Of a stretch of 64,000 nucleotides of DNA, positions 1 to 12,985 are shown in pieces. The notes beneath the pieces are model-generated. The model worked only from the letters and a program-made list of their open reading frames with translations, was not told where the DNA came from and made no database searches. How positions within the stretch are numbered: the stretch's first letter is position 1; the number at the start of each line of letters is the position of its first letter. Source of the stretch: Pseudomonas paralcaligenes. Its GTDB lineage: Bacteria; Pseudomonadota; Gammaproteobacteria; Pseudomonadales; Pseudomonadaceae. The position numbers and the translations under genes were made by a program. The stretch spans positions 310,001 through 374,000 of the forward strand of contig NZ_BPFX01000007.1 of assembly GCF_019655855.1 (NCBI RefSeq), given 5' to 3'.

Positions 1-130
1 CCTTGATCTCCACCGGCTCGTGGCCGAACACCCGGTGGGCGACGAAGGGCATCAGCACCGCGGACGACTTGTCCAGGCGGTCGCCGCCACAGCAAATGCA
101 CTGCCGGGCGATCAGTTCGCGATTCACCAT
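1..130 (-). CDS. Partial hypothetical protein of the sugar operon (N-terminus only)
   Basis: Only the first 43 codons are present and the gene leaves the window at the left edge. The visible N-terminus (starting MVNRELIARQCICCGG) has a cluster of three cysteines near residues 11-14, which suggests a small metal-binding segment before an unseen main domain. Its ATG overlaps the end of the upstream SDR gene by 7 bases, so it is translationally coupled and is the last visible member of the glycan operon. N-terminal cysteine clusters of this kind occur on some SAM-dependent methyltransferases of polysaccharide loci, but nothing catalytic can be seen here, so no function is assigned. Confidence 0.6.
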   Translation of the reverse strand, partial: MVNRELIARQCICCGGDRLDKSSAVLMPFVAHRVFGHEPVEIK

Positions 131-954
131 GTGCTGCGTCCCCCGTCGACGACCAGATTCGCACCGTTCATATATGAAGAGGCATCCGAGCAGAGGAAGG
201 CGATCGCCCCCCGGTACTCGTCGGCGTCGGCCATGCGCCCGAGCGGGATCAGCTGGGTCAGCTTGCTCACGAAGACATCGTTCTGCCCCGCGTAGACCCC
301 GCCTGGAGAAAGCGCATTGCAGCGCACACCCTGTTCGCACCAGTAGGTCGCCAGGTACTTGGTCAGGCCGATCAGCCCGTGCTTGACCACCGAATAGGTC
401 ACCGGCTTGACCGGCTGCCGCTCGGACTCACGTCCTTCGACCCGGTAGAGGCGCTGATCCGGGGCGATCACGCCGAGGTCGGAGGCGATATTGACGATCA
501 CCCCGGCGCCCTGCCGGGCCATCTGCGCACCGAACACCTTGGCGCAGTTGAACGCCCCACCGAGCCCCACATCCAGGTCCAGCCTCCACTGCTCCCAGGG
601 GAAGTTTTCCAGGCGGGAGAAGTCCTTGTCGCCGGCGCTCTCCACCTTGGGGTTGCGCGCGGCATTATTGATCAGGATGTCCACCCGGCCATGGCGCGTC
701 ATCAGTTGCTCGAAGGCATTCTCCAGTGCGCCCAGGTCGGTGATGTCAGCCACCAGCGTCAAGGCTTCGCAGCCGGTCTCCTCGGCCAGCCGGGCTGCGT
801 TGCCCGCGAGGCCATCGCCATTGATGTCGAGCAGCACGGGCACGCCACCGAGGCCGGCGATGGTCGCCGCATGCTGGTAGCCGAGCAGACCGCCGCCGCC
901 GGTGATGACCGCAACCCGGCCGTCCAGCCGGAACAGGCTTTCCGTACTAGCCAT
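124..954 (-). CDS. Short-chain dehydrogenase/reductase (SDR)
   Basis: A 276-residue classical SDR, probably an NAD(P)-dependent reductase or dehydrogenase acting on a sugar or sugar nucleotide. The glycine-rich TGGGGLLG lies at residues 18-25, NNAA at 96-99, a catalytic Ser near 158, and the Tyr187-x3-Lys191 pair follows. The C-terminus has the usual PGG and dGGrs pattern. The ATG overlaps the stop of the oxidoreductase gene upstream by 8 bases, and its own stop overlaps the next gene, so it sits inside the operon. SDRs of flagellin-glycan loci such as Campylobacter ptmA are plausible relatives. Substrate is not deducible from sequence. Confidence 0.88.
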   Translation of the reverse strand: MASTESLFRLDGRVAVITGGGGLLGYQHAATIAGLGGVPVLLDINGDGLAGNAARLAEETGCEALTLVADITDLGALENAFEQLMTRHGRVDILINNAARNPKVESAGDKDFSRLENFPWEQWRLDLDVGLGGAFNCAKVFGAQMARQGAGVIVNIASDLGVIAPDQRLYRVEGRESERQPVKPVTYSVVKHGLIGLTKYLATYWCEQGVRCNALSPGGVYAGQNDVFVSKLTQLIPLGRMADADEYRGAIAFLCSDASSYMNGANLVVDGGRSTW

Positions 955-2002
955 GGATATCCACCTCGCTCAGCAATACTTCCCGGCCCTCGCGCAGCGA
1001 GCGCAAGGCTGCCAGCGCCAGGCGCAGGCTCTGCAGGCCATCCTGCAGATCGACCACCGGCCGGGTGCCCCGGGCGAGGCAATCGAGAAAATGCCTGGCC
1101 TGGGCCAGGAACATGTCGTTGCGCACGAACCCCGGGAAGTCGTCCTGCTCGCGGAGTTCGCCCTGGGCATCGTGGATGCGCAGGCGATTGGCCAGCAGAT
1201 CGATCTCGGCGAAACCGGCGTCGCCGACGATCTTCAGGGTGCGGACCGGCGGACGCTGGAGAAAATCCTGATGCAGCAGGATGGGGAAGCTGCCGCCGGG
1301 CCCGTCGCTACGCATCAGCGACGAAGCCGTATCCTCGACGTCCACCTCCAGGCCACTGAGCTGGCCGCCATGGGTAACGATGCTGCGCGGCAGGCCGAAG
1401 AGCCAGTAGATCAGGTCCATCTCGTGGATCTGCGACAGGATCACCCCGCCGCCCTGGTCGGCCCGCGCGGCGTACATCTGCCGGTAGTCCTCGTAGCGGT
1501 GCCAGTTGGGCAGGTACTCGCCGATTTCCGAGCGCACGCTGAGCAGGCGACCAAAGAAGCCCGTCTCGACCAGCGCCTTGAGCCGCTGCAACCCGGGATG
1601 GAAGCGGAAGTTGTAGCCGACATGGAACAGCAGCTTGCGCGCCTTCACCTCGGCCAGCAGCTCGGCCACCCCCGCCAGATCGCTGGCCAGGGGCTTCTCC
1701 ATGAACACGGGGACGCCGGCGCGAACGCATTCGAGGGCCACCGGCACATGCAGCGCGTTGGGGTTGCAGGCGAACACGGCGTCCGGCCGCTGCGCCAGAG
1801 CTGCCGCCAGATCGTGGTGAACCTGAATCCGATAGTCCCGCTCGAGGTCGGCGCCCTCGTCGATCGTCAGGTTGTCGCGCAGCTTGATGCGCTGGCCGCG
1901 TACACGATAGGCGTGGACCTGAAGGTCATCGCCGAGCAACTCGCGCAAGTTGCGCAGATGACGCTGGCCGATCCCGCCGAGCCCACAGAACAGAATCTTC
2001 AA
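947..2002 (-). CDS. Gfo/Idh/MocA family oxidoreductase (TTG start)
   Basis: A 351-residue NAD(P)-dependent sugar dehydrogenase. The Rossmann motif GLGGIGQRH is at residues 7-15 and the family EKP motif at 102-104. The start is taken as TTG at 2002: the protein then begins KILFCGLGG as expected for the fold, a purine-rich GAGAAGAGAGAG lies just upstream, and the TTG overlaps the TGA of the preceding isomerase gene (TTGA). An upstream in-frame start at 2047 would add 15 residues unlike the family. It probably oxidises or reduces a hydroxyl of the sugar intermediate handled by the neighbouring isomerase. The exact substrate is unknown. Confidence 0.87.
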   Translation of the reverse strand: MKILFCGLGGIGQRHLRNLRELLGDDLQVHAYRVRGQRIKLRDNLTIDEGADLERDYRIQVHHDLAAALAQRPDAVFACNPNALHVPVALECVRAGVPVFMEKPLASDLAGVAELLAEVKARKLLFHVGYNFRFHPGLQRLKALVETGFFGRLLSVRSEIGEYLPNWHRYEDYRQMYAARADQGGGVILSQIHEMDLIYWLFGLPRSIVTHGGQLSGLEVDVEDTASSLMRSDGPGGSFPILLHQDFLQRPPVRTLKIVGDAGFAEIDLLANRLRIHDAQGELREQDDFPGFVRNDMFLAQARHFLDCLARGTRPVVDLQDGLQSLRLALAALRSLREGREVLLSEVDIHG

Positions 2003-2886
2003 GATATCTCTCTCTTCTCGTCGCAGAGTGCGCGACCTCTTAGCCAATCCTCGGCGAGCCGCGCCATCCCGGCGAGCCAGGCGGGTTCGTCACCGGGTTC
2101 GCCGCGGGCCACCTGCAGGACGAAGTCGCCCGCATATCCGTACTGGATCAACAGCTCGCGCAGGCTGCGGAAATCGGTATCGCCCTGGCCGAGCGGCACG
2201 GTGCTGCCCCCACGGCGGCGATCCTTGATATGGAAGCTGCCGATACGCTCGCCATAGGCGGCGAACTCCTGCGCCGGCGGGTACCCCAGCGAGGCGCTGT
2301 TGCCGGCGTCGTAGTTGACCTTGATCAGGGGATGGTCGAGACGAAGCAACAGTGCGCGGAACGCCTCGGGCGCGAGGTCGGTCTCCAAGTGCAGCTCGAC
2401 GGCATGGCGCTCGGCGTACGGCAGGACCTCCCGCAGGTTGGCGACCACCTGCTCGAATTCCTCGTCGCTGCGGATGCTCGACGCATCCACGAACGGCAGC
2501 ACGACGCGCCCCACACCCATCTCTGGGCAGATGCCCAGCAGCCACTCCATGCGCCGCAGCAGCTCGGCATTCTCGGCGGCGGTGCAGCGCAGCAGCGGGC
2601 GGTCCATGAAATAGTCAGCGCAGATGGAAACCACCGAGACCCCGTGTTTCGCCAGCAGGTCACGCAGCTCGCTCCGGCCGACGTCGTTCTCGAGCGGGTT
2701 GGCGCCCTCGCCGTAGAGGTCGTAGATCCACTCGATACCGCGCAGGCCCGCCTGCGCGGCCCTCTCGATCTCCAGGCGCCAGCCTTGCCGGGGAAAGGAC
2801 TGAAAGCGGCCGTCTTCCGGCGCGCCCAGGCGGCCCTGCATGGTGTACAGGCCGGTTTCGGCGTATCGGCTCAGATAGTCGCCCAT
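1999..2886 (-). CDS. Sugar phosphate isomerase/epimerase (AP-endonuclease-2 fold)
   Basis: A 295-residue TIM-barrel protein of the xylose isomerase-like superfamily. Metal-ligand-type segments are visible: a Glu in HLETD, an Asp/Asn pair in NYDAGNS, and a His in HIKDRRRGGS, as in tagatose-3-epimerase and IolE/IolI relatives. It begins one base after the stop of the ThDP enzyme gene, with GGGGGAG as ribosome binding site, and its stop overlaps the TTG start of the oxidoreductase gene. An epimerase next to a Gfo/Idh/MocA enzyme is a recurring pairing for 2- or 3-position inversion through a keto intermediate. A second domain of the same superfamily is fused to the NeuB-like enzyme of this operon. 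Confidence 0.85.
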   Translation of the reverse strand: MGDYLSRYAETGLYTMQGRLGAPEDGRFQSFPRQGWRLEIERAAQAGLRGIEWIYDLYGEGANPLENDVGRSELRDLLAKHGVSVVSICADYFMDRPLLRCTAAENAELLRRMEWLLGICPEMGVGRVVLPFVDASSIRSDEEFEQVVANLREVLPYAERHAVELHLETDLAPEAFRALLLRLDHPLIKVNYDAGNSASLGYPPAQEFAAYGERIGSFHIKDRRRGGSTVPLGQGDTDFRSLRELLIQYGYAGDFVLQVARGEPGDEPAWLAGMARLAEDWLRGRALCDEKREIS

Positions 2887-2887
2887 G

Positions 2888-4678
2888 TCACTCCCCCACC
2901 AGCGGGACGAGCATGTTGGCGCGCAACTCGTCTCGGTCGAGGAACGGGAAGAGGTCCTCCAGCGGGCTGGAGACCATCACGCCGTTCTGGCCGATCTTCG
3001 AGGTGACGCGCGGGCCGATGGCCTGGTCGGGCTGGACCATGACCTCGCACACCACCGGGCCTTCCAGCGCCAGCGCCTCCTCGATCCCCGCCCTCAGATC
3101 GCTGCTGCCGTCGATGCGCAGGACCGGCAGGCCGAAGGCCGCCGCCAACGCCGGAATGTTCGGCAAGGTGAGGCCCGAGGTGGGGTCGCAGCCGATGGTC
3201 TGCTTGAAGTACCCGCCCTGGGAGGCGCGAATCGAGGCATAGCCATTGTTGTTCAGCACGAAGTACTTGATCGGCAGCCCCAGCCGGCGCACCACTTCGA
3301 GCTCCTGTATGTTCATGACGAAGCCGCCATCGCCATCCACCGACACGGTTCGCCGGCTGCCGCTGCCCAGGCAGCCGCCGATGGAGGCCGGCAGGCCGTA
3401 GCCCATCGAGCCCAGCCCGCCGGTGGCCACCGCGCGCTGGCCGCGCTTGAGGCGCACGGACAGCCAGAAGGTATCCAGCGCCGCGCCGGAACTGCCGGGA
3501 ATGATCTGGTCCCCCTCGGCCAGCGCTTCCGACAGCGCCTCGGTGAACACATAGGTGTTGACGTATTCGCCGGCCTGGCGGTACTCGGGCAGGACCACCG
3601 GGTAGGCCGCCTTCCAGGCCGCGCAACGCTCGCGCCACGCCTGGCAGTCCAGCCGATCCGTGCCCATGGCCTCACGCAGCCGCTCGACGAAAAGCCGAGC
3701 ATCGCACACGAATCGCTCATCGGGCATGTCGCCCAGCTTGGCGATCTCCGCCGGGTCGATGTCCACCACCACGATCTCCGCCGCGCGCGCGAACTGGCTG
3801 CGGTCGAAGCCGGTGATGGAGAAGTCCATGCGGCAGCCGATGGCAAGCACCAGATCGGCGTTCTGCACGGTGAAGTTGGCCCCGCGTTGGGCCACCGTGC
3901 CGCAGCGGCCCGCATAGAGGGGATGGTCGTACTCCAGCAGGTCCGCACCGATCCAGGTGGTCTGGGTGGGGATGCCGAGCGCCTCGATCAGCTCGCGCGT
4001 CTGCTGCTCGCCTCCCGCCGCATGGATGCCGTTGCCGACCAGCAGCACCGGCCGCTGCGCCTCGCGCAGGCGCTGCACCAAGCGCGCCAGCGCTTGCCCG
4101 TCGACAGGGTCCGGCTGCTCGCCAGCCTCCGGCACGTAGCCCTGCAGCTGCGCCGGGTCGATCTCGGTGGCCTGCACGTCCAGCGGCACATCGAGCCAGA
4201 CCGGCCCCTTGCGCCCGCCGAGCATCAGATGCAGGGCCTTCTCCAGCTCATAGCGCACGCGCTGGGGGTCGAGCAGGCAGACGGCGTACTTGGTCAGCGG
4301 GCCGACCACGCTGACGATATCCAGCTCCTGGGTGCCGAGCTGGCGCAGGCCGCTGTCGCCCTTGAGGTCGGCGCGCTTCACCTGCCCGGAGATGAACAGC
4401 GCGGGGGTCGATTCGAACCAGGCGCCGGCCAGGCCGGTGATGGCGTTGGTGGCCCCCGGCCCCGACGTGACCAGACAGACGCCGAAGCGCCCGGACGTGC
4501 GCGCGTAGCCTTCGGCGGCAATCGCCGCGCCCTGCTCGTGCAACATGCTCACCGCCGTCAGGCGCGGCTGGCGATACAGGGCGTTGTTGAGGTGCATGGC
4601 CCCGCCACCGGGCAGGAAGAACACATGGCCGATGCCCTGGTTGGCGATGAACTCGAAGATGTAATCGGCAACACGCAT
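2888..4678 (-). CDS. Thiamine diphosphate-binding enzyme, acetolactate synthase/YerE-like
   Basis: A 596-residue ThDP enzyme with the three-domain layout of acetohydroxyacid synthases. The catalytic Glu48 lies in HEQGAAIAAEGYAR, the central domain spans about 190-330, and the ThDP/Mg motif GDGGF (449-453) ends with NNN near 476-478. ATG at 4678 is preferred because it gives the conserved MRVADYIFEFIANQG start; a TTG at 4696 is also possible. No regulatory subunit gene is nearby, so valine/isoleucine synthesis is unlikely. In yersiniose synthesis the related YerE couples the two-carbon unit of pyruvate to a CDP-4-keto-3,6-dideoxyhexose, and rfbFGH for that acceptor lie in this same operon. Assignment to that chemistry is inference. 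Confidence 0.85.
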   Translation of the reverse strand: MRVADYIFEFIANQGIGHVFFLPGGGAMHLNNALYRQPRLTAVSMLHEQGAAIAAEGYARTSGRFGVCLVTSGPGATNAITGLAGAWFESTPALFISGQVKRADLKGDSGLRQLGTQELDIVSVVGPLTKYAVCLLDPQRVRYELEKALHLMLGGRKGPVWLDVPLDVQATEIDPAQLQGYVPEAGEQPDPVDGQALARLVQRLREAQRPVLLVGNGIHAAGGEQQTRELIEALGIPTQTTWIGADLLEYDHPLYAGRCGTVAQRGANFTVQNADLVLAIGCRMDFSITGFDRSQFARAAEIVVVDIDPAEIAKLGDMPDERFVCDARLFVERLREAMGTDRLDCQAWRERCAAWKAAYPVVLPEYRQAGEYVNTYVFTEALSEALAEGDQIIPGSSGAALDTFWLSVRLKRGQRAVATGGLGSMGYGLPASIGGCLGSGSRRTVSVDGDGGFVMNIQELEVVRRLGLPIKYFVLNNNGYASIRASQGGYFKQTIGCDPTSGLTLPNIPALAAAFGLPVLRIDGSSDLRAGIEEALALEGPVVCEVMVQPDQAIGPRVTSKIGQNGVMVSSPLEDLFPFLDRDELRANMLVPLVGE

Positions 4679-4685
4679 GGGGTGA

Positions 4686-5885
4686 CTACTCGGCAAGAGG
4701 CTGCTGGGGAAGACGCGCGGCGGGTACGGCGTAGAGGACCAGGTCCCAACCCTCGGCCAGGTGCGGGCAGAGGGTGAAGTGGTAGTCGGGGTGGTAGTCG
4801 TGCAGCTGCAGCAGCACGCTCCACAGGTGGTTCTGCTCGTGGTAGACGCACACCGCGATCACCGGATGCCGCTCGGCGATCAGGCGCCGCCCGCCCGCCA
4901 GACACTGCGGCTCGAATCCTTCGATATCGATCTTGATGAAGGTCGCCGGCGCAATCTGCGCGCTCAGGTCGTCGATGGTGGTGATCCGTACGCGCTCGCT
5001 GCCACGCCCTACCCGACTGGCGGCGCCACTGCTGTCCTCGATGAGGATTTCCCCGTTGCTGTCGCCGATGGCGAGCGGGTAGGCATGCAGGCCCCGCGCT
5101 TCGCCGCCGAGCTTTTCCAGGTTGTCGTGCAGATCGGCATAGTTGGCGGGCGAAGGCTCGAACGAATGGATTTCCCGGTAGCCCCGGCCGCTCTCCAGGT
5201 ATTCCGCGACCGAATCGCCATTGAACGCGCCGATGTCGTAGAGCACTTCGTCGGTGCGGTCGCTGCTGAAGTGCCCATCGAAGTAGATCGCCAGGGGCGA
5301 TGCCGGCGGCAACAGATCGTGGTCGAGCGACAGCCGCCACTCGACATGGTCCACGAACAGCTGCCGCGACGCGTCGTCGCCCAGCAGGGTGAACGCACGG
5401 CGGACCTGCTCGGCCTCGGCCACCACCTTCTCCGGCAGGTCCAGGGAATAGTGCGGCAGGAAGTGCTCGGGATGACGCCAGGCCAGATGGCCGAACAGGG
5501 CGATACGGTCGAAACCCAGCGCCCTCAGCGGCGCGAGCCGCTCCGTCATACGGTCGGTGATGTGGCCGCTCCAGATCGTGCAGATGACCGACGGCAGCGG
5601 GCCATCGCTCCGCTCGGCCAACTGCGCCGGGCTCATCACCGGAACCGAATCGATCAGCGTGCCCCACACCGCCGGGTTGTTATCGATGAAGGCCTCGGGG
5701 ACGAAGCCCATCTGCTTGAGCACGGCCTGGGTCTTGCGCCCCAGGTGGCTTGCCCCAAAAAGCACGAACGGACGATCCAGCCCGCCGATCAGTCGCTCCA
5801 GGGTATGCGACTGACGATCCCGTATAGATTCCAGCGATTCGCTCAGCAAGGCGTCCAGTCGCGCACTCAAGCCCATGGTCTCCAT
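4686..5885 (-). CDS. FkbM family methyltransferase with N-terminal Rossmann-like domain
   Basis: A 399-residue protein. The C-terminal half is an FkbM-type SAM methyltransferase: YDIGAFNGDS at 216-225 is the SAM-binding motif I, FEPSPANYADL follows, and KIDIEGFEP lies at 318-326. Residues 39-70 (FGASHLGRKTQAVLKQMG) look like a small nucleotide-binding Rossmann unit, as in PglD-N-type modules of sugar loci. The ATG at 5885 has GAGGAAG five bases upstream and lies 10 bases after the NeuB-like gene. It probably O-methylates the sugar or glycan made by the operon. Acceptor and position are unknown. Confidence 0.82.
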   Translation of the reverse strand: METMGLSARLDALLSESLESIRDRQSHTLERLIGGLDRPFVLFGASHLGRKTQAVLKQMGFVPEAFIDNNPAVWGTLIDSVPVMSPAQLAERSDGPLPSVICTIWSGHITDRMTERLAPLRALGFDRIALFGHLAWRHPEHFLPHYSLDLPEKVVAEAEQVRRAFTLLGDDASRQLFVDHVEWRLSLDHDLLPPASPLAIYFDGHFSSDRTDEVLYDIGAFNGDSVAEYLESGRGYREIHSFEPSPANYADLHDNLEKLGGEARGLHAYPLAIGDSNGEILIEDSSGAASRVGRGSERVRITTIDDLSAQIAPATFIKIDIEGFEPQCLAGGRRLIAERHPVIAVCVYHEQNHLWSVLLQLHDYHPDYHFTLCPHLAEGWDLVLYAVPAARLPQQPLAE

Positions 5886-5895
5886 GGCCGCTTCC

Positions 5896-7791
5896 TCATA
5901 GTGATTGCAAGTAGGTCAAAGCCGACCAGAAACCGGCTCCATGGTCCTTGTGCCCCTGCCAGACTTCCGGAATGAAGCTGACATGAGGGTGCTTCCTGAT
6001 ACGCGCCCAGGTGGCGGGCCAGTCGATATCGCCCGTGCCCATCAGCACGCCTTCGCCATTGGTGCCCTTGGCATCGGCCACGTGCAGGTGCGCCGAATGG
6101 GGCAGCAGCAACTCCAGCGCGGCCTGGAAATCGAGCCCGAAGTGGAAGCAGGTCATCTGCAGGTGCGACAGGTCGAGGCACAGGCGCAGGCCATGCTCCC
6201 GGGCCTGGGCCGCCAGCTCCTCGGGCATCATGAAGATGTTCTGGTGGCGCTGGCCGCCGAAGTGCCAGGGGAACGGCGCCATGTTCTGCGGGATCAGCTC
6301 GGTGCCGGCGAAGTCGATACGCGCGCAGGCCTCGTGGAAACGCTCGTACAACTCCGGACGCATCGCCAGCGGCCGTGGCTCGTCGGCGGAGAACCCGCCG
6401 ATGTTGGCGACGATCAGCCGGGCATCGGCTTTAGGGAAGAACTCGCCGATCTGCAACGTGGCCTCGACCACGCGCTGCAGGTTGTCGATGGAGCGCTGAC
6501 GATAGGCCGGATCATCCGAGGCCAGGTCCAGCAACTCGCTGTTCTCGAACAGCTCGGGGGCATGCACCACCAGCCGCGAGCAATCCACCTCGGCCAGGAA
6601 AGGCTGCGGCTTGAGGCTGAGGTCGCGGTACGACAGGTGGAACTCGTACAGGTCGGGCTCGATCCGCCGGCGGTAGTCGAGGAAGTCGTGATAGCGCACC
6701 GGTACACCCCAGCGGATCGGCAGTTCGAAGGAAAGCGCGGCTTCCGGCTGCTGCTCGTCGAGATCGCTGTCGAACAGAAAGTCGCCCTGGGCGATATCGC
6801 GGCTCGCGGGCTTGCCCAGCAGTTCGGGCAACCGATAAGGCGGCAGCCCCTGGCCGGGGCTGGCCACGCGCAGCATGCTCTCGTCGAGGACGGTGCCCTG
6901 AGTGATGTCGCGCGACGCAATGACGCTCTTGCCGAGATTCTCCCGGTTGAGCAGCTCGCCCTGGCTGGCGTGACGCCCGGGGCCCTGCCATGGCAGCGCC
7001 AGTTCCAGTTGCCGGATGCCGTCCACCAGCTGGCGGAACTCTTGTGGCTCCAGGCTGGCCAGGTGGTCCGGCCCCTCCATGCCACGATCGAGGGTGATAT
7101 GCCGCTCCACCAGCTTGGCGCCCAACGCGACGGCCCCGAGGGTGATCGCGATACCGCGCTCATGCCCCGAGTAGCCGATCAGGCCGTGCAGTTCCTGCAG
7201 GCGACGCAGGTAGCCGAGCTGGATATCGGCCTCCGGCGCCGGATAGGCGCTGTTGCAATGCAGCAGGGCGAACGGCACCCCGAGCGCGTTCAGCTGCTCG
7301 ATGGCACGCACGATCTCGTGCTCGAAGGACATGCCAGTGGACAGGATCAGCGGCTTGCCGAGGCTGGCCGCCTTGGCGATCAGATAGGGATTGCAGAGAT
7401 CGGCCGAGGCGATCTTCAGCGCCGCGACATCGAAGCTCGCCAGGGCATCGACGCTGGGCTCGTCCCACGGCGTGCACAGGTAGCTGATGCCCTTCTCCGC
7501 GCAGTAGGCGCGTAGCTGGCGGTGCTCGTCGAGGCTCAGCTCGACCTTGTCCAGCAGGTCCTGGATGTATTCGACCCCCAGGTCCTCGGCGCGCGAACCA
7601 TCGGCCTTGCGCCGGTACAGCGCCTCGCGGTTGCGCAGCTGGAACTTCACGCAGTCCGCGCCGGCGTCCAGCGACGCATCCACTAGCTGCCGGGCCAGCG
7701 CCAGCGAGCCGTTGTGATTGTTGCCCACCTCGGCGATGACGAAGACACGTTCGCCACCCACCGGAATGCCGTCTAGAAGCATGGAAGTCAT
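5896..7791 (-). CDS. NeuB-like sialic acid synthase fused to a sugar isomerase domain
   Basis: A 631-residue bifunctional-looking protein. Residues about 15-280 form the NeuB TIM barrel (IAEVGNNHNG at 19-28, KFQ at 49-51, STGMS at 151-155, GYSGHE at 206-211, ERHITLDR at 229-236). Residues 285-345 form a SAF/antifreeze-like domain. Residues about 355-631 are a separate xylose isomerase-like barrel (HAPELFENS, CLDLSHLQM, HVADAKGTNGEG). NeuB enzymes condense PEP with an aldose to give a 2-keto-3-deoxy acid, and stand-alone NeuB proteins are only about 350 residues. The ATG (7791) overlaps the kinase stop as ATGA. The fusion suggests that the aldose is isomerised and condensed by one polypeptide. 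Confidence 0.88.
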   Translation of the reverse strand: MTSMLLDGIPVGGERVFVIAEVGNNHNGSLALARQLVDASLDAGADCVKFQLRNREALYRRKADGSRAEDLGVEYIQDLLDKVELSLDEHRQLRAYCAEKGISYLCTPWDEPSVDALASFDVAALKIASADLCNPYLIAKAASLGKPLILSTGMSFEHEIVRAIEQLNALGVPFALLHCNSAYPAPEADIQLGYLRRLQELHGLIGYSGHERGIAITLGAVALGAKLVERHITLDRGMEGPDHLASLEPQEFRQLVDGIRQLELALPWQGPGRHASQGELLNRENLGKSVIASRDITQGTVLDESMLRVASPGQGLPPYRLPELLGKPASRDIAQGDFLFDSDLDEQQPEAALSFELPIRWGVPVRYHDFLDYRRRIEPDLYEFHLSYRDLSLKPQPFLAEVDCSRLVVHAPELFENSELLDLASDDPAYRQRSIDNLQRVVEATLQIGEFFPKADARLIVANIGGFSADEPRPLAMRPELYERFHEACARIDFAGTELIPQNMAPFPWHFGGQRHQNIFMMPEELAAQAREHGLRLCLDLSHLQMTCFHFGLDFQAALELLLPHSAHLHVADAKGTNGEGVLMGTGDIDWPATWARIRKHPHVSFIPEVWQGHKDHGAGFWSALTYLQSL

Positions 7792-9152
7792 TGGATTTTC
7801 ATTCGCCATGAAGTGACACCGCAGGACTCGAAACGGAAGTTCTGGGTATGGCAGCCCAGCGTGCGCACCGTCTGCACCACCCGCTGCCGATGCTGCGGCT
7901 GCACGTAGAAGAGGAAGAAGCCACCGCCGCCGGCGCCCAGCAGCTTGCCGCCGAGGGAACCGGCCGCCAGGGCCGCATCGTAGATGTCGTCGAGACGACC
8001 GTGGCTGATCGCCGAGGAGAAGCGCTTCTTCAGCTGCCACGCCTCGTCCAGGCACTTGCCGAAGTCGCGCAGCTCGCCACGGATCAGGTAGCGGTGCATG
8101 CGCCGACACAGGGTCACGCTGGCACTGAGCAGTTCGGTCTGCGACGACTCGGCCTCGATCTCTTCGCGCTGCAATTCGTGGAGGCGGCCCGAGTCGTGGG
8201 AAATCCCGGTATCACAGAGCACCAGGCAGGATTCCAGTTCGTTGCGGATCGCATCCTCCAGGCGGATCGGATGGACCAGGTTGCGCTGGTTCTCGAACTC
8301 GATGAGGTTGAAGCCGCCGAATGCCGAGGCGTACTGATCCTGCCAGCCGCCAGCGATGCCGAAACACAGGCGCTCCGCCTGGAAGGCCAGCTCGGCGATC
8401 TCGTAGGTGCTCCAGCGGTCCTGGCGCAGCTCGTTGAATGCCGCGATGGTGGCGGTCGTGGCCGCCGAGGAACCACCCAGCCCGGAGCCCACCGGGAAAT
8501 CCGAGCGCAGGTACAGATCGAAACCGTACTTGGGCTTGATCACCGCCACGATGGTCGCCAGCAGACTCTTGTCGGCGGCAACCAGCAGCTCTGCGATGGA
8601 GGCGTAGTGCTCCTCGTTCCCCAGGTCCTCGGAGAAGATGCGGATCTGCTCATCGTCGCGCGGTACCAGGGTGGCGTGGGCATACAGCCCCACGGTGCAA
8701 CTGAGTACCGCCGCCGGGTGATCGATGAAGAAATAGGTCAGGTCCGCGCCGCCGCCGCAGAAGCTCATGCGCACCGGCGCGCGGGCCCGGGCCAGCACCG
8801 GCACCTCTGCGCTGGCGGCCATCAGCCGGGTGTACACCTCGACCAGGCGGCCCTGCTCGTCCACGCCGGGAATGGCGTTGTAGCCGAGGTCGAAGACCTT
8901 CAGCAGCTCCTCGCGCGTCGCATCGGCCTGCACCGCGCGGAACTGGCGGTTCATGCAGGCCGTGACCGGCAGATCGGTGTGCCCGCCCTGCAGCAGATGA
9001 CGGCGCACGTCGCCGTTGGTCACCACGCCGAGCAGGCGGCGATCCTCGGCGACGACGAAGGCGATCTGCAGATCGCCCGCCTCGATGCACTTGACCGCAT
9101 CGAGGATGCTCTGGCCTTCGCCGATGCTGAGGGTCTGCACGAGTAGGCTCAT
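7788..9152 (-). CDS. CBS-domain / GHMP sugar kinase fusion (HddA-like)
   Basis: A 454-residue protein. Residues 1-115 are a CBS pair (LGVVTNGDVRRHLL at 41-54; second unit about 61-115). Residues 124-454 are a GHMP kinase resembling D-glycero-D-manno-heptose 7-phosphate kinase: RAPVRMSFCGGGADL begins at 124, the ATP loop PVGSGLGGSSA is at 220-230, and the C-terminal KLLGAGGGGFF follows. It overlaps the nucleotidyltransferase upstream (ATGA) and the NeuB gene downstream (ATGA). Kinase plus nucleotidyltransferase would activate a sugar as an NDP derivative. CBS pairs are better known on the nucleotidyltransferase of such loci (PtmE type), so their position here is unusual and may give nucleotide control of the kinase. 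Confidence 0.85.
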   Translation of the reverse strand: MSLLVQTLSIGEGQSILDAVKCIEAGDLQIAFVVAEDRRLLGVVTNGDVRRHLLQGGHTDLPVTACMNRQFRAVQADATREELLKVFDLGYNAIPGVDEQGRLVEVYTRLMAASAEVPVLARARAPVRMSFCGGGADLTYFFIDHPAAVLSCTVGLYAHATLVPRDDEQIRIFSEDLGNEEHYASIAELLVAADKSLLATIVAVIKPKYGFDLYLRSDFPVGSGLGGSSAATTATIAAFNELRQDRWSTYEIAELAFQAERLCFGIAGGWQDQYASAFGGFNLIEFENQRNLVHPIRLEDAIRNELESCLVLCDTGISHDSGRLHELQREEIEAESSQTELLSASVTLCRRMHRYLIRGELRDFGKCLDEAWQLKKRFSSAISHGRLDDIYDAALAAGSLGGKLLGAGGGGFFLFYVQPQHRQRVVQTVRTLGCHTQNFRFESCGVTSWRMKIQ

Positions 9153-9841
9153 GAGGAAGCATCCGGGTGGAATTCGTTGGCGTAGCGTTCGAGCGACTCC
9201 GGCGTACCGATGTCGATGAAGCGTCCGTCGTACTCGATGACCCTGACCGGCTGCCGTTCGAGCAGAGCCGGCAGCAGATCGTGCTCCATCGAGCAGGCAT
9301 GCACGGGCACGGCGGCGAACGCCTCATGGGTGAAAGCGTAGACACCCGCGTTGATCAGGCCCTCGCCACCCTGCCCCTTTTCCCGCAGGGCGACCAGCAG
9401 GCCCGCGGCATCCAGCGCCAGGCTGCCGTAGCGGCTGCGGTCGGCGACCCGCACGGCCAGCAGCGCGTTGCCTTCGCCCTGGGCAGCCAGTCGATAGCCT
9501 TCCGGGTCGAGGAAAGTATCGGCGTTGAGCGCCAGGTAGCGGCCGTGCGGCGGCCGCTCGCGCAGGGCGTTGAGCAGCGCTCCGCCGGTACCCAGCGGCT
9601 CGCTCTCCACCACCATTTCCAGCCTCAGTCCGGAACCGGCGGCCAGTGCGTCGAGCTGTTCGGCCAGTTGGTCGGCGCGATAGTGGGCGCACAGTACCGC
9701 CTCGTCGATGCCGGCCTGCCCCAGCTGGCGCAGCACCCGCGCCAGGAAGGGCTCGCCATGCACGGGCACCAGCGCCTTCTGCGCGTCCGTCACGCTGCGC
9801 AGGCGCGTGCCGAAGCCGCCGCAGAGCACGTAGGCGCGCAT
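9149..9841 (-). CDS. Sugar-1-phosphate nucleotidyltransferase (HddC/RmlA-like)
   Basis: A 230-residue nucleotidyltransferase with the signature LCGGFGTRL near residue 6, LGTGGALLNAL in the middle, NADTFL as the metal-binding Asp segment, and a C-terminal IDIGTPESLERYA. The size and motifs fit the short GDP/ADP-heptose or mannose-1-phosphate type enzymes, whose partner is the adjacent GHMP kinase. It joins rfbH as TGATG (one-base overlap) and the kinase as ATGA. It probably makes an NDP-activated form of the kinase product. The nucleotide used cannot be told from motifs alone. Confidence 0.86.
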   Translation of the reverse strand: MRAYVLCGGFGTRLRSVTDAQKALVPVHGEPFLARVLRQLGQAGIDEAVLCAHYRADQLAEQLDALAAGSGLRLEMVVESEPLGTGGALLNALRERPPHGRYLALNADTFLDPEGYRLAAQGEGNALLAVRVADRSRYGSLALDAAGLLVALREKGQGGEGLINAGVYAFTHEAFAAVPVHACSMEHDLLPALLERQPVRVIEYDGRFIDIGTPESLERYANEFHPDASS

Positions 9842-11163
9842 CAGCGCAGCCTCCGCAGGTAGCTTTCCAGGCTGCGCGCGGCATGCTCCAGATGATCCTC
9901 GCCCAGGCCGGGCCAGAGGCCGATCCAGAAGGTGTCCCGCATCACCTTGTCGGTCACCGTCAGCTCGCCGGAAACCCGGTATTCGAGGCCGTGCAGATAG
10001 GGCTGGCGGGTCAGGTTGCCGGCGAACAGCAGGCGGGTGCCAACCTTCTGCTCGTCCAGGTGGCGCAGCAGGCCGAGCCGCTCGACGCCGCAGCCGTCGC
10101 GCAGGGTCAGCGGGAAGCCGAACCAGGATGGCTCGCTGCCTGGCGTGGCGTGCGGCAGGATCAGCTGATCGGCGCAGCCGGCAAGGCGCTCGCTGAGCCA
10201 GGCGAAGTTGCGCCGCCGAGCGGCGATGAAGTCGTCGAGCCGGTCCATCTGCGCCAGGGCGCAGGCGGCCTGCATATCGGTGATCTTCAGGTTGTAGCCC
10301 AGGTGCGAGTAGGTGTACTTGTGGTCGTAGCCCGCCGGCAGCTCGCCCAGCTGCCAGCCGAAGCGCTTGCCGCAGGTGTTGTCCTCGCCGGGCGCGCAGT
10401 AGCAGTCGCGGCCCCAGTCGCGGAAGGATTCGACGATGCGCTTGAGCAGCGGCGAATCGGTGAACACCGCGCCGCCCTCGCCCATGGTGATGTGGTGCGC
10501 CGGGTAGAAGCTCAGGGTGCCGAGGTCGCCGAAGCCGCCGACCAGGCGTCCTTCGTAGGTCGAGCCGAGGGCGTCGCAGCAATCCTCGATCAGCCACAGG
10601 CCGTAGCGGTCGCACAACTCGCGGACCACCTTGAGGTTGAACGGGTTGCCCAGGGTGTGGGCGAGCATGATGGCCTTGGTGCGTGGGCCGATGGCTGCCT
10701 CGATCAGGGCCGGGTCGATGTTGTAGGTACCCAGTTCGATGTCGACGAACACCGGCACCGCGCCGAACTGCAGGATCGGGTTGACCGTGGTCGGGAAGCC
10801 GGCGGCCACGCCGATCACTTCGTCGCCCTTGCAGATCGCCCGCTCGCCCAGGCGCGGCGAGGTCAGCGCCGAGAAGGCCAGCAGGTTGGCCGAGGAGCCG
10901 GAGTTGGCGGTGAGCACGCCACGCCGGCCGAGATAGCGCGCCAGGCGCTTCTCGAACGCCTGGTTGAAGCGCCCGGTGGTCAGCCAACCGTCCAGCACGG
11001 CCTCGGTCATGGCCTGCAGTTCAGGGGCGCCGATCACCTTGCCGGAAGGCGGCACCACAGCCTGGCCGGGAACGAAAGGGGCTGGCGCCAGCTGCAGTTC
11101 CGCATAGCGGCCCACCAGCTCGGCTATCTGCTGGCGCAACTGCTGCGCCGTCTGTTCGCTCAT
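9841..11163 (-). CDS. rfbH: CDP-6-deoxy-4-hexulose 3-dehydrase (E1)
   Basis: A 440-residue PMP-dependent dehydrase of the DegT/DnrJ fold that removes the C3 hydroxyl of CDP-6-deoxy-L-threo-D-glycero-4-hexulose. Two diagnostic features are visible. The PLP lysine is replaced by His223 within [14 protein letters not shown], as in E1 enzymes rather than aminotransferases. The [2Fe-2S] pattern C-x57-C-x-C-x7-C is present as Cys196, Cys254, Cys256 and Cys264. The ATG overlaps the rfbG stop as ATGA. No E3-type ferredoxin reductase (rfbI/ascD) is encoded in the window, so the reductant must be supplied from elsewhere or by a generic partner. Confidence 0.93.
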
Positions 11164-12233
11164 GGGGTTTCGCCCTGATAGGCCGCGATCTGTGCGCGGC
11201 TGAATGTCTGCATGTCTTCGCCAGCCTGCCAGGCCCGATGCCAGTCGAGGGTCCGTGCGAGAGCCTGCTCCAGCGACCAGCGCGGTCGCCAGCCCAATTG
11301 TACGCGGGCCTTGGTGGAGTCCAGCGAGAGCAGGCCGGCCTCGTGCGGCTGCGCCGTGGCCTCGATGCTCCAGCGCGCCTCGCCGGACCAGTGCCGGGCC
11401 AGCCGCTCGACCAGTTCGCCGACACTGACCAGGCCCTCGGCATCGGGTCCGAAGTTCCAGGCCGAGGCCACGGAGTCGCCCTGCTCCACCAGTGCCTGGG
11501 CCAGGCACAGGTAGCCGCCGAGCGGCTCCAGTACATGCTGCCAGGGCCGTACCGCCTGCGGGTAGCGCAAGACCAGCGGCTGCTGGGCCTGCCAGGCGCG
11601 CAGGATGTCGGGCAACAAGCGGTCTGCCGACCAGTCGCCACCCCCGAGCACGTTGCCCGCCCGGGCCGTGGCCAGGGCGATGCCGGCCTCACGCAGGAAG
11701 GATTCGCGCCAGGAGGCGCAGAGCAGCTCGGTACAGGCCTTGCTGCTGCTATAGGGATCGTGTCCGCCGAGGGTGTCCTGTTCGCGGTACGGCCAGAGCC
11801 ATTCGCGGTTCTCGTAGCACTTGTCACTGGTCACCACCACGACGGCGCGCACCGAATCGCAACGACGCACCGCCTCGAGCAGGTTGAGCGTGCCCATGAC
11901 GTTGGTCGCGTAGGTGTCCGCCGGCGTCCGGTAGGACTCACGTACCAGCGCCTGGGCGGCCAGGTGCAGGACGATCTCGGGGCGGAACTGCGCGACCGCC
12001 CGGGACAGCGTCTCAGCGTCGCGCACATCGGCCAGGGTGCCGGACACCACATCCGTCAGCCGCGCTTCCTGCCACAACGATGGCGTGGTCGCGGCGGGCA
12101 GCGCATAGCCATGGACCTGCGCCCCCAGCTCGCGCAGCCACAAGGCCAGCCAGCCGCCCTTGAAGCCGGTGTGCCCGGTGAGAAGGACCCGGCGCCCCGC
12201 CCAGAACGCCGGATTCAGCGCCATAGCTGCCAT
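11160..12233 (-). CDS. rfbG: CDP-glucose 4,6-dehydratase
   Basis: A 357-residue extended SDR converting CDP-D-glucose to CDP-4-keto-6-deoxyglucose. The NAD motif [10 protein letters not shown] begins at residue 19, the catalytic triad region TSDKCYEN is at 135-142, and Tyr161-x3-Lys165 lies in YSSSKACTE. Length matches the family. Start at 12233 has GAGGCGGA just upstream; an in-frame ATG at 12224 is the alternative. The start lies inside the 3' end of rfbF (19-base overlap), so the two are coupled. Confidence 0.94.
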
Positions 12234-12985
12234 TCCGCCTCGCCGCTCTTCCAGCGCTCCTCGAGCAGAACCCGATCACGCAGGGTATCCATCGGCTGCC
12301 AGAAGCCACGGTGCAGATGGCTCATCAGCTGGCCTTCCCCGGCCAGTTGGCGCATCGGCTCGTACTCCCAGGTCGTCTCGTCCCCGTCGATATAGTCGAA
12401 TACGCCAGGCTCGAGCACGAAGAATCCGCCATTGATCCAGCCGCCATCGCCCAGGGGCTTTTCCTGGAAACCGTGCACCTGCTGCCCCTGCACGTCCAAC
12501 GCCCCGTATCGCCCTGGAGGCTGGACAGCGGTCACCGTGGCCAGTTTGCCGTGGCTTCGATGGAAATCGATCAACTGCGGGATGTCGATGTTGGAGACGC
12601 CGTCGCCGTAGGTCAGGCAGAACGTCTCGTCGCCGATGTAGTCGCGCACGCGCTTCAGGCGTCCGCCAGTGGCGGTGCTCTCGCCGGTATCGACCAGGGT
12701 CACGCGCCACGGCTCGGCGTGGCGATTGTGGATGTGCATGCGGTTTTCCGCCATGTCGAAGGTCACGTCGGACATGTGCAGGAAGTAGTTGGCGAAGTAC
12801 TCCTTGATCACGTAGCCCTTGTAGCCCAGGCAGATCACGAAGTCGTTGATGCCGAAGTGGGAGTAGATCTTCATGATGTGCCAGATGATCGGCTTGCCGC
12901 CTATCTCGATCATCGGCTTGGGCCGCAGGTGGGACTCCTCGCTGATGCGAGTGCCCAGACCGCCGGCCAGAATGACTGTTTTCAT
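12215..12985 (-). CDS. rfbF: Glucose-1-phosphate cytidylyltransferase
   Basis: A 256-residue enzyme making CDP-glucose from CTP and glucose 1-phosphate. It opens with [18 protein letters not shown], continues with [19 protein letters not shown], and has [11 protein letters not shown] as the metal-binding Asp segment. Its length is typical of RfbF/DdhA. It is the first gene of the leftward operon, and the AT-richer leader to its right must carry the promoter. The product feeds RfbG and RfbH to give CDP-4-keto-3,6-dideoxyglucose. Confidence 0.95.

Follow-up and report, generated by a model that had tools for sequence, protein, structure and literature searches.

Enzymes dependent on thiamine diphosphate (ThDP) are already known to place carbon branches, including some drawn from long hydroxylated keto acids, on dideoxy sugars activated with cytidine diphosphate (CDP). 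In the yersiniose A pathway of Yersinia pseudotuberculosis, the acceptor is CDP-4-keto-3,6-dideoxyglucose, and the carboligase YerE, which prefers pyruvate, moves a two-carbon unit from it. ErwE (erwiniose, Pectobacterium atrosepticum) and MMAR_2332 (caryophyllose, Mycobacterium marinum) are YerE-like enzymes that prefer longer hydroxylated 2-keto acids: ErwE rejects pyruvate and favours 4-hydroxy-2-oxo acids such as 4-hydroxy-2-oxobutanoate, and the caryophyllose enzyme resembles it in donor choice. More than 200 YerE-like candidates have been identified, and a sugar structure is lacking for the vast majority (these statements follow the accessible part of PMC12247030). A further relative, JanthE of Janthinobacterium, takes keto acids of varied length, from short to long, and, when benzaldehyde is the partner, 4-hydroxy-2-oxovalerate; in the available part of PMC12188165 its physiological substrates are not identified. 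Here we analyse an operon of Pseudomonas paralcaligenes that sets the genes of such a branching pathway beside a NeuB-like synthase. It lies at one end of a stretch of 64,000 nucleotides (contig NZ_BPFX01000007.1, positions 310,001 to 374,000), which we call the window. We put at about 0.74 the probability that the product of this operon is a large nucleotide sugar, C-branched and destined for flagellin, in whose synthesis the NeuB product would feed the ThDP enzyme, a reading based on sequence comparison.

The locus resembles the yersiniose A pathway in its acceptor genes and its YerE-like carboligase, and differs from it by the NeuB gene near the ThDP gene, which would be superfluous with pyruvate; this gene content speaks against a pyruvate donor. 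It also shares a YerE-like enzyme with the erwiniose and caryophyllose pathways, but its donor slot holds NeuB; the alternative occupants of this slot in the loci that we surveyed are HMGL- or HpcH-type aldolases. A JanthE-like pseudomonad locus (L125) has, by reading of the sequence, a DmpG-type aldolase and an acylating aldehyde dehydrogenase where the window has NeuB. A NeuB-family synthase within a flagellin-glycosylation island is also a trait of the legionaminic, pseudaminic and sialic acid pathways. Unlike these, the window has no cytidine monophosphate (CMP)-sugar synthetase in the operon, a NeuB that scores below the family cut-offs and has lost Arg314, and RfbF, RfbG, RfbH and the ThDP enzyme at its side. 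In the papers that we read, and in the titles and abstract beginnings of those listed (most subscription papers being outside reach), we found no link between NeuB and the making of a ThDP donor. The first-pass annotation had described a NeuB-like synthase; the gene is indeed present, and in fuller form it encodes a fusion of NeuB, SAF and AP_endonuc_2 domains. The genes on which the argument turns are the following.

12215..12985, minus strand: rfbF, glucose-1-phosphate cytidylyltransferase (TIGR02623, 473 bits against a cut-off of 300)
11160..12233, minus strand: rfbG, CDP-glucose 4,6-dehydratase (TIGR02622, 498 bits against a cut-off of 278)
9841..11163, minus strand: rfbH, E1-type CDP-4-keto-6-deoxyglucose 3-dehydrase (NF011936, 727 bits against a cut-off of 423; alignment to 3bcx with HHITMGEGG)
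5896..7809, minus strand: NeuB-type synthase fused to SAF and an AP_endonuc_2 TIM barrel (sugar isomerase/epimerase-like), proposed maker of the 2-keto-3-deoxy donor acid (PF03102, PF08666, PF01261; Ser for Arg314; first Met of the frame at 7809)
2888..4696, minus strand: YerE-like ThDP-dependent carboligase (TPP_enzyme_N/M/C; 8rph at 446 bits against 297 for acetolactate synthase; tree and residues; start TTG 4696 or ATG 4678)

At most one putative donor-making family per ThDP locus

We collected ThDP loci from the best 80 of 188 genome records, chosen by likeness to the window ThDP protein, and from 19 and a further 6 stretches around pseudomonad matches. After removal of L051, which has just a fragment of the ThDP protein, 104 ThDP rows remained, including the window and the other ThDP protein of its genome. 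Donor-making families were counted in 100 loci, on both strands and over the full length of each stretch (19.9 kb in the median, at the least 3.2 kb). NeuB was found in 53 of them, an HMGL-type aldolase in 21 and an HpcH-type aldolase in 8; 18 had none, and no locus had two or more. Exactly one donor-capable family is hence present in 82/100 loci. Under independent dealing, NeuB and HMGL alone would coincide about 11 times, and random dealing of the same numbers over the 104 rows, kinship ignored, gave zero overlap in 0/20000 draws. On a quick ThDP tree with several unsure branches, the donor labels change at least 15 times, against a mean of 45.1 when shuffled (as low in none of 200 shuffles). 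At 60% identity, the ThDP rows form 20 clusters, one of which mixes NeuB and HpcH members.

One representative of each family was scanned. The NeuB is PF03102, the HMGL-like protein has 4-hydroxy-2-oxovalerate aldolase as its nearest named model (85 bits, below the cut-off of 229), and the HpcH/HpaI protein narrowly exceeds the Pfam cut-off (29 bits against 25). In principle, each family is able to make a 4-hydroxy-2-keto acid, the class preferred by ErwE. Of all the arguments for NeuB as the source of the ThDP donor, we consider this one the strongest. The pairing of NeuB and ThDP genes recurs in several gene orders; the assemblies concerned are assigned to many bacterial phyla and, in one case, to an archaeon.

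Other enzymes accompany some of these loci. AroB-related cyclases are encoded in 14 (L090, L095, L096, L084 and others) and were of the TIGR04425 type in the two scanned. These loci often have a short-chain dehydrogenase (SDR) gene after the ThDP gene, and three of them are among those in which no donor enzyme was found; the cyclase substrate might be linked to the donor acid. Several loci of Bacteroidetes and Doudnabacteria (L088, L101, L105, L102) have putative split transketolase subunits upstream of the ThDP gene, which possibly make the aldehyde for the aldolase.

The NeuB fusion and the position of Arg314

The window NeuB is below the cut-offs of both nonulosonic acid equivalogs (307 bits against 400 for TIGR03569 and 220 against 340 for TIGR03586). 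Its catalytic positions, whose roles we assume from sialic acid synthase, are retained in the alignment to that enzyme. In the available part of PMC6795526, Arg314 of sialic acid synthase positions the N-acetyl group of the substrate; PDB entries 4ipi and 4ipj are mutants of this residue. The window NeuB has Ser at this position. We counted the residue in the 53 NeuB loci and the window, apart from one NeuB without SAF domain (L042) and two unreadable ones (L038, L082): it is replaced by Ser, Ile, Val or Phe in 50 of the 51 readable ThDP-locus NeuBs, window included. As a control, we chose 20 NeuBs from the non-fused pseudomonad matches, and all 20 keep Arg314; three of these come from genomes with an additional, fused NeuB that has Ser. 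On a quick tree, which does not settle the number of independent recruitments, the NeuBs from ThDP loci form three groups apart from one another (27, 24 and 2 rows), with L077 in addition.

The AlphaFold model of the fusion has a mean predicted local distance difference test score of 71 and a predicted template modelling score of 0.48. The structure matches listed for it are NeuB, DAHP and KDO8P synthases and concern the N-terminal part, so the C-terminal part is hardly tested by them; a sequence search of the PDB gave no useful match for the fused TIM domain. A CBS domain lies on the kinase in the window (7788-9152) and on NeuB in close homologues (P0185, P0195), a move that hints at a common pathway for the two proteins. 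In a metagenome-assembled genome (MAG) of Holophagaceae (L042:284-1660), NeuB carries a KdsC-type 3-deoxy-ulosonate phosphatase where SAF would otherwise be, and its gene immediately precedes the ThDP gene; such a phosphatase would set the free acid loose.

The product of a NeuB normally requires a CMP-sugar synthetase to be used as a sugar. Three NeuA/KdsB queries (E 1e-3) found none in the 100 ThDP loci. A search of the window's own genome with PF02348 (CTP_transf_3) matched KdsB and, at 29 bits, a 477-residue frame of unsettled identity, and gave no clear CMP-sugar synthetase besides KdsB. CTP_transf_3 matches were wholly missing from two of 29 NeuB-carrying genomes, a Microcystis and an Altiarchaeota MAG. 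The locus without CMP-sugar synthetase and the loss of Arg314 led us to reject an ordinary pathway to sialic, legionaminic or pseudaminic acid.

A different context was observed in L134 (8716-10938), where the gene that immediately follows that of a CMP-sugar synthetase encodes a CBS-NeuB-TIM protein of 741 residues, truncated at the end of the contig; this genome gave neither ThDP nor RfbH matches. The NeuB of L134 (45-47% identical) also has Ser at position 314, which suggests that a fused NeuB can feed a CMP-sugar as well.

The carboligase and its proposed acceptor

The closest solved relatives of the window ThDP protein are 8rph, 8rpi and 8rpj (446 bits, against 297 bits for the best acetolactate synthase). 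We take 8rph to be JanthE, although its PDB row says just 'Thiamine pyrophosphate-binding protein'. It carries the CDG cofactor motif that the available part of PMC12188165 gives for JanthE, whereas the window protein has an intact GDG motif. The only other ThDP match in the genome (E <= 1e-10) is 33% identical to the window protein and located elsewhere. This second protein has both the Arg and the Trp that we take to be the substrate residues of acetolactate synthase; the window protein has Ser at the first position and no Trp at the second. It also scores below the cut-off of the acetolactate synthase model TIGR00118 (364 bits against 538). The YerE-type assignment made in the first-pass annotation thus agrees with the closer match to 8rph and with the missing Arg and Trp. 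That annotation had named grouping with true acetolactate synthases as a sign against its reading; the enzyme does not group with the genome's own acetolactate synthase, from which it is separate on the tree, in these residues and by identity (33%). Acetolactate synthase was ruled out as an identity for the window enzyme by the sub-cut-off score, the lost residues and the closer solved relative.

Three loci (L125:10834-12537, L136 and L138) have a shorter ThDP protein of 567-571 residues beside RfbH. It keeps an acetolactate-synthase-like Arg and forms its own group on the tree, and is maybe a pyruvate-using branching enzyme.

RfbF, RfbG and RfbH were predicted from the start, the last as an authentic E1 enzyme, and all three score above the curated cut-offs of their equivalog models. 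The alignment of RfbH with the solved E1 dehydrase 3bcx (E 9.5e-208) spans almost the whole protein, and the two have in common the HHITMGEGG stretch, whose His presumably replaces the pyridoxal phosphate lysine in E1, and cysteines that we assume to be iron-sulphur ligands. With an E3 reductase, these three enzymes yield CDP-4-keto-3,6-dideoxyglucose. Two loci of rumen Bacteroidales (L062, L073) have RfbF, RfbG and the ThDP protein with no RfbH nearby, and their acceptor may be CDP-4-keto-6-deoxyglucose.

Co-occurrence across genomes

Among 298 Pseudomonadaceae, the ThDP protein was found in 25 genomes (E <= 1e-100) and RfbH in 31 (E <= 1e-150), and all 25 of the former have both. NeuB lies within 6 kb of the ThDP gene and on the same strand in 22 of these 25, the exceptions being L125, L128 and L129. 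The fused NeuB (at least 76% identity) is present in 17 genomes, 17/17 with both ThDP and RfbH. The co-occurrence of the ThDP and NeuB-isomerase genes with rfbH, which the first-pass annotation had put forward as a check, is therefore borne out in this family. In a class-wide draw of 369 genomes, the divergent NeuB type occurs in five, three times with the ThDP gene directly beside it; the ThDP protein (E <= 1e-85) occurs in ten, three of which have the divergent NeuB type. Of the other seven, the window's own genome has the fused NeuB.

The same annotation had held that independent occurrence of rfbFGH and of the NeuB and ThDP genes would count against a joint pathway, and such independence was found in part. 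We read the stretches of five of the other six pseudomonad RfbH genomes: in two, RfbH adjoins a ThDP enzyme that is less closely related, and three have RfbFGH with neither NeuB nor a ThDP enzyme in the stretch. Relatives of the NeuB also occur with a CMP-sugar synthetase instead of the ThDP enzyme (L134, L170, L171). We read these loci as cases of alternative partners, not as a refutation.

Operon layout and the flagellin-glycosylation island

All named genes of the operon are on the minus strand, from 12985 to 124, and mostly overlap or are separated by gaps of a few bp. Besides the genes given above, it includes the following.

9149..9841, minus strand: HddC-like sugar-1-phosphate nucleotidyltransferase (PF00483; NF049965 at 119 bits, below the cut-off of 300; start ATG 9841)
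7788..9152, minus strand: CBS domain and GHMP sugar kinase, HddA-like (PF00571, PF00288, PF08544; NF049969 at 229 bits, below the cut-off of 600; PDB 4n3o, 3k85)
4686..5885, minus strand: FkbM-type methyltransferase domain with a long N-terminal part (PF05050, TIGR01444)
1999..2886, minus strand: AP_endonuc_2 TIM barrel, sugar isomerase/epimerase-like (PF01261; UlaE 3cqh, E 5.8e-9)
947..2047, minus strand: Gfo/Idh/MocA oxidoreductase, IolG-like, exact start unsure (PF01408, PF22725, PF02894; TIGR04380 at 104 bits, below the cut-off of 355)
124..954, minus strand: short-chain dehydrogenase (many SDR models, 0/25 best-listed over cut-off)
1..52, minus strand: methyltransferase, first codons only in the window (start about 52; name from reading of the sequence)

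The operon had been taken to end at window position 1, and this is not so: it runs on leftward beyond the edge. There we found the methyltransferase, an epimerase-type SDR, a second FkbM protein, a 1204-residue glycosyltransferase-like frame, fliC and other flagellar genes. These names come from reading the sequences by eye; of these genes, only the epimerase-type SDR and the FkbM protein were scanned with profiles. Because the operon continues to the glycosyltransferase-like frame and fliC, it belongs to a flagellin-glycosylation island. The kinase and the nucleotidyltransferase resemble enzymes of guanosine diphosphate (GDP)-heptose synthesis, yet fall below the model cut-offs. The nearest named relative found in the best 80 of 188 records is Pseudomonas sp. 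PDM16, whose ThDP protein is 97% identical.

Proposed pathway and alternative explanations

In the pathway that we propose, RfbF, RfbG and RfbH would provide a CDP-4-keto-3,6-dideoxyhexose, by family membership and the established chemistry of these families. The NeuB fusion would condense phosphoenolpyruvate with an aldose, probably not N-acetylated, into a free 2-keto-3-deoxy-4-hydroxy acid. The YerE-like enzyme would decarboxylate this acid and transfer what is left of it, an acyl chain, to the ketone at C4 of the CDP-sugar; the product would be a tertiary alcohol whose long side chain bears many hydroxyl groups. Judging from position and family, preparation of the aldose is probably the task of the kinase and the nucleotidyltransferase, together with at least one of the two TIM barrels; reduction or reshaping of the branch would probably fall to the Gfo protein, the SDR and, beyond the window edge, the epimerase-type SDR; its capping to the methyltransferases; and attachment of the sugar to the glycosyltransferase beside fliC. 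Seen over many genomes, the place of the donor maker near the ThDP gene would be taken either by NeuB or by an aldolase of the HMGL or the HpcH type, never by two of them together. The earlier suggestion that the NeuB product, and not pyruvate, is the acyl donor of the ThDP enzyme gains support from the exclusivity of the slot, the lack of a CMP-sugar synthetase at the locus, the loss of Arg314 and the co-occurrence with RfbH, all of them comparative tests.

Several observations weigh against this pathway. The exclusivity statistic is inflated by kinship, and the loci from named records were selected by their likeness to the window ThDP protein. No donor enzyme was found in 18/100 ThDP loci, so the ThDP family is evidently able to use another source; some of these loci are on short contigs, and others (Legionella-like ones, L128 and L136) may use pyruvate. 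The NeuB of L077, 5.3 kb from the ThDP gene, is the sole readable one at a ThDP locus to keep Arg314. The absence of a CMP-sugar synthetase is clear only at the level of the locus and in two genomes: 27 of the 29 NeuB-ThDP genomes have a CTP_transf_3 match, several have more than one, and a second strong match occurs in 2/8 pseudomonad NeuB-ThDP genomes. Outside ThDP loci, all three surroundings read (L134, L170, L171) have a NeuB of the same lineage adjoining a CMP-sugar synthetase, with no ThDP gene found, and therefore NeuB alone does not imply the ThDP enzyme; L170 and L171 are the two divergent-NeuB genomes of the class-wide draw without an adjoining ThDP gene. On the acceptor side, the search for an E3 reductase gave L163, which reads as a fusion of ferredoxin and flavin reductase but is over no NCBIfam cut-off among its five best-listed models and is of uncertain identity. 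Finally, RfbH is missing from the stretch in 11 of the 54 ThDP rows labelled NeuB. We searched the genomes of ten of these rows (L092 was left out): RfbH is encoded elsewhere, over the cut-off, in nine, and as a contig-edge piece only in the tenth (L042), against 0/14 control genomes.

Among the other explanations, the least improbable, though we find it unlikely, is that the operon serves two separate sugars of the same flagellin glycan: a yersiniose-like one, for which RfbFGH and the ThDP enzyme would draw on pyruvate, and a nonulosonic-type acid from NeuB that has nothing to do with it. Several pathways can share one glycan island, YerE itself takes pyruvate (accessible part of PMC12247030), and in four pseudomonad loci with RfbFGH and a ThDP gene (L128, L129, L136, L138) the donor enzyme was not found. 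Two unrelated sugars fit poorly, however, with the mutual exclusion of NeuB and two aldolase families, with the lack of a CMP-sugar synthetase beside NeuB in ThDP loci, with the lost Arg314, and with a NeuB-ThDP pairing that recurs, in several gene orders, in assemblies from many phyla. Alternatively, the HddC-like nucleotidyltransferase, or else KdsB, could activate the NeuB product for use as a sugar in itself, while the ThDP enzyme has another donor. The kinase and nucleotidyltransferase genes just upstream of neuB, and the presence of a CBS domain on the window kinase and, in close homologues, on NeuB, would agree with this. We nevertheless consider it distinctly improbable, given that the nucleotidyltransferase is of the sugar-1-phosphate type and not a CTP_transf_3, and that L038 and L042 have NeuB and ThDP genes with no match to the window kinase or nucleotidyltransferase listed.

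We give still less credence to a single pathway in which the ThDP and NeuB enzymes act in another order or on another acceptor, such as a branch put onto a sugar activated by the kinase and the nucleotidyltransferase. The NeuB-labelled rows without RfbH in the stretch, and the two Bacteroidales loci with RfbF and RfbG but neither a nearby RfbH nor a donor enzyme found (L062, L073), would fit such a scheme, but RfbH is elsewhere in 9/10 of the former genomes searched and accompanies the ThDP protein in 25/25 pseudomonads. Chance placement of a biosynthetic or catabolic acetolactate synthase in the operon has a probability close to nil: close homologues do bear that name in several sources and TIGR00118 matches at 364 bits, but this is under its cut-off of 538, the substrate-position Arg and Trp are absent, the genome's other ThDP match is a 33% identical protein encoded elsewhere, and the best solved relative is 8rph.

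Two possible fates for NeuB-type acids

On balance, and with less confidence than for the window operon, we favour a broader reading in which NeuB-type acids have two fates. Beside a CMP-sugar synthetase they would become CMP-sugars; beside a YerE-like ThDP enzyme they would serve as carbon nucleophiles added onto CDP-dideoxy sugars. The second route, which several distinct NeuB groups would follow in assemblies of many phyla, would give very large branched sugars chemically unseen so far, carried on flagellin in pseudomonads. The numbers behind this reading outside ThDP loci are small (3/3).

YerE-like enzymes are sought as catalysts for tertiary alcohols that are hard to make. If the class of donor can be read from the gene near the ThDP gene, YerE-like loci become testable individually. 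If the proposed pathway is true, synthases of the sialic acid type gain a second use, as makers of carbon donors rather than of sugars. It also predicts that pseudomonad flagellin would carry a large branched sugar not yet seen, which can be checked by mass spectrometry.

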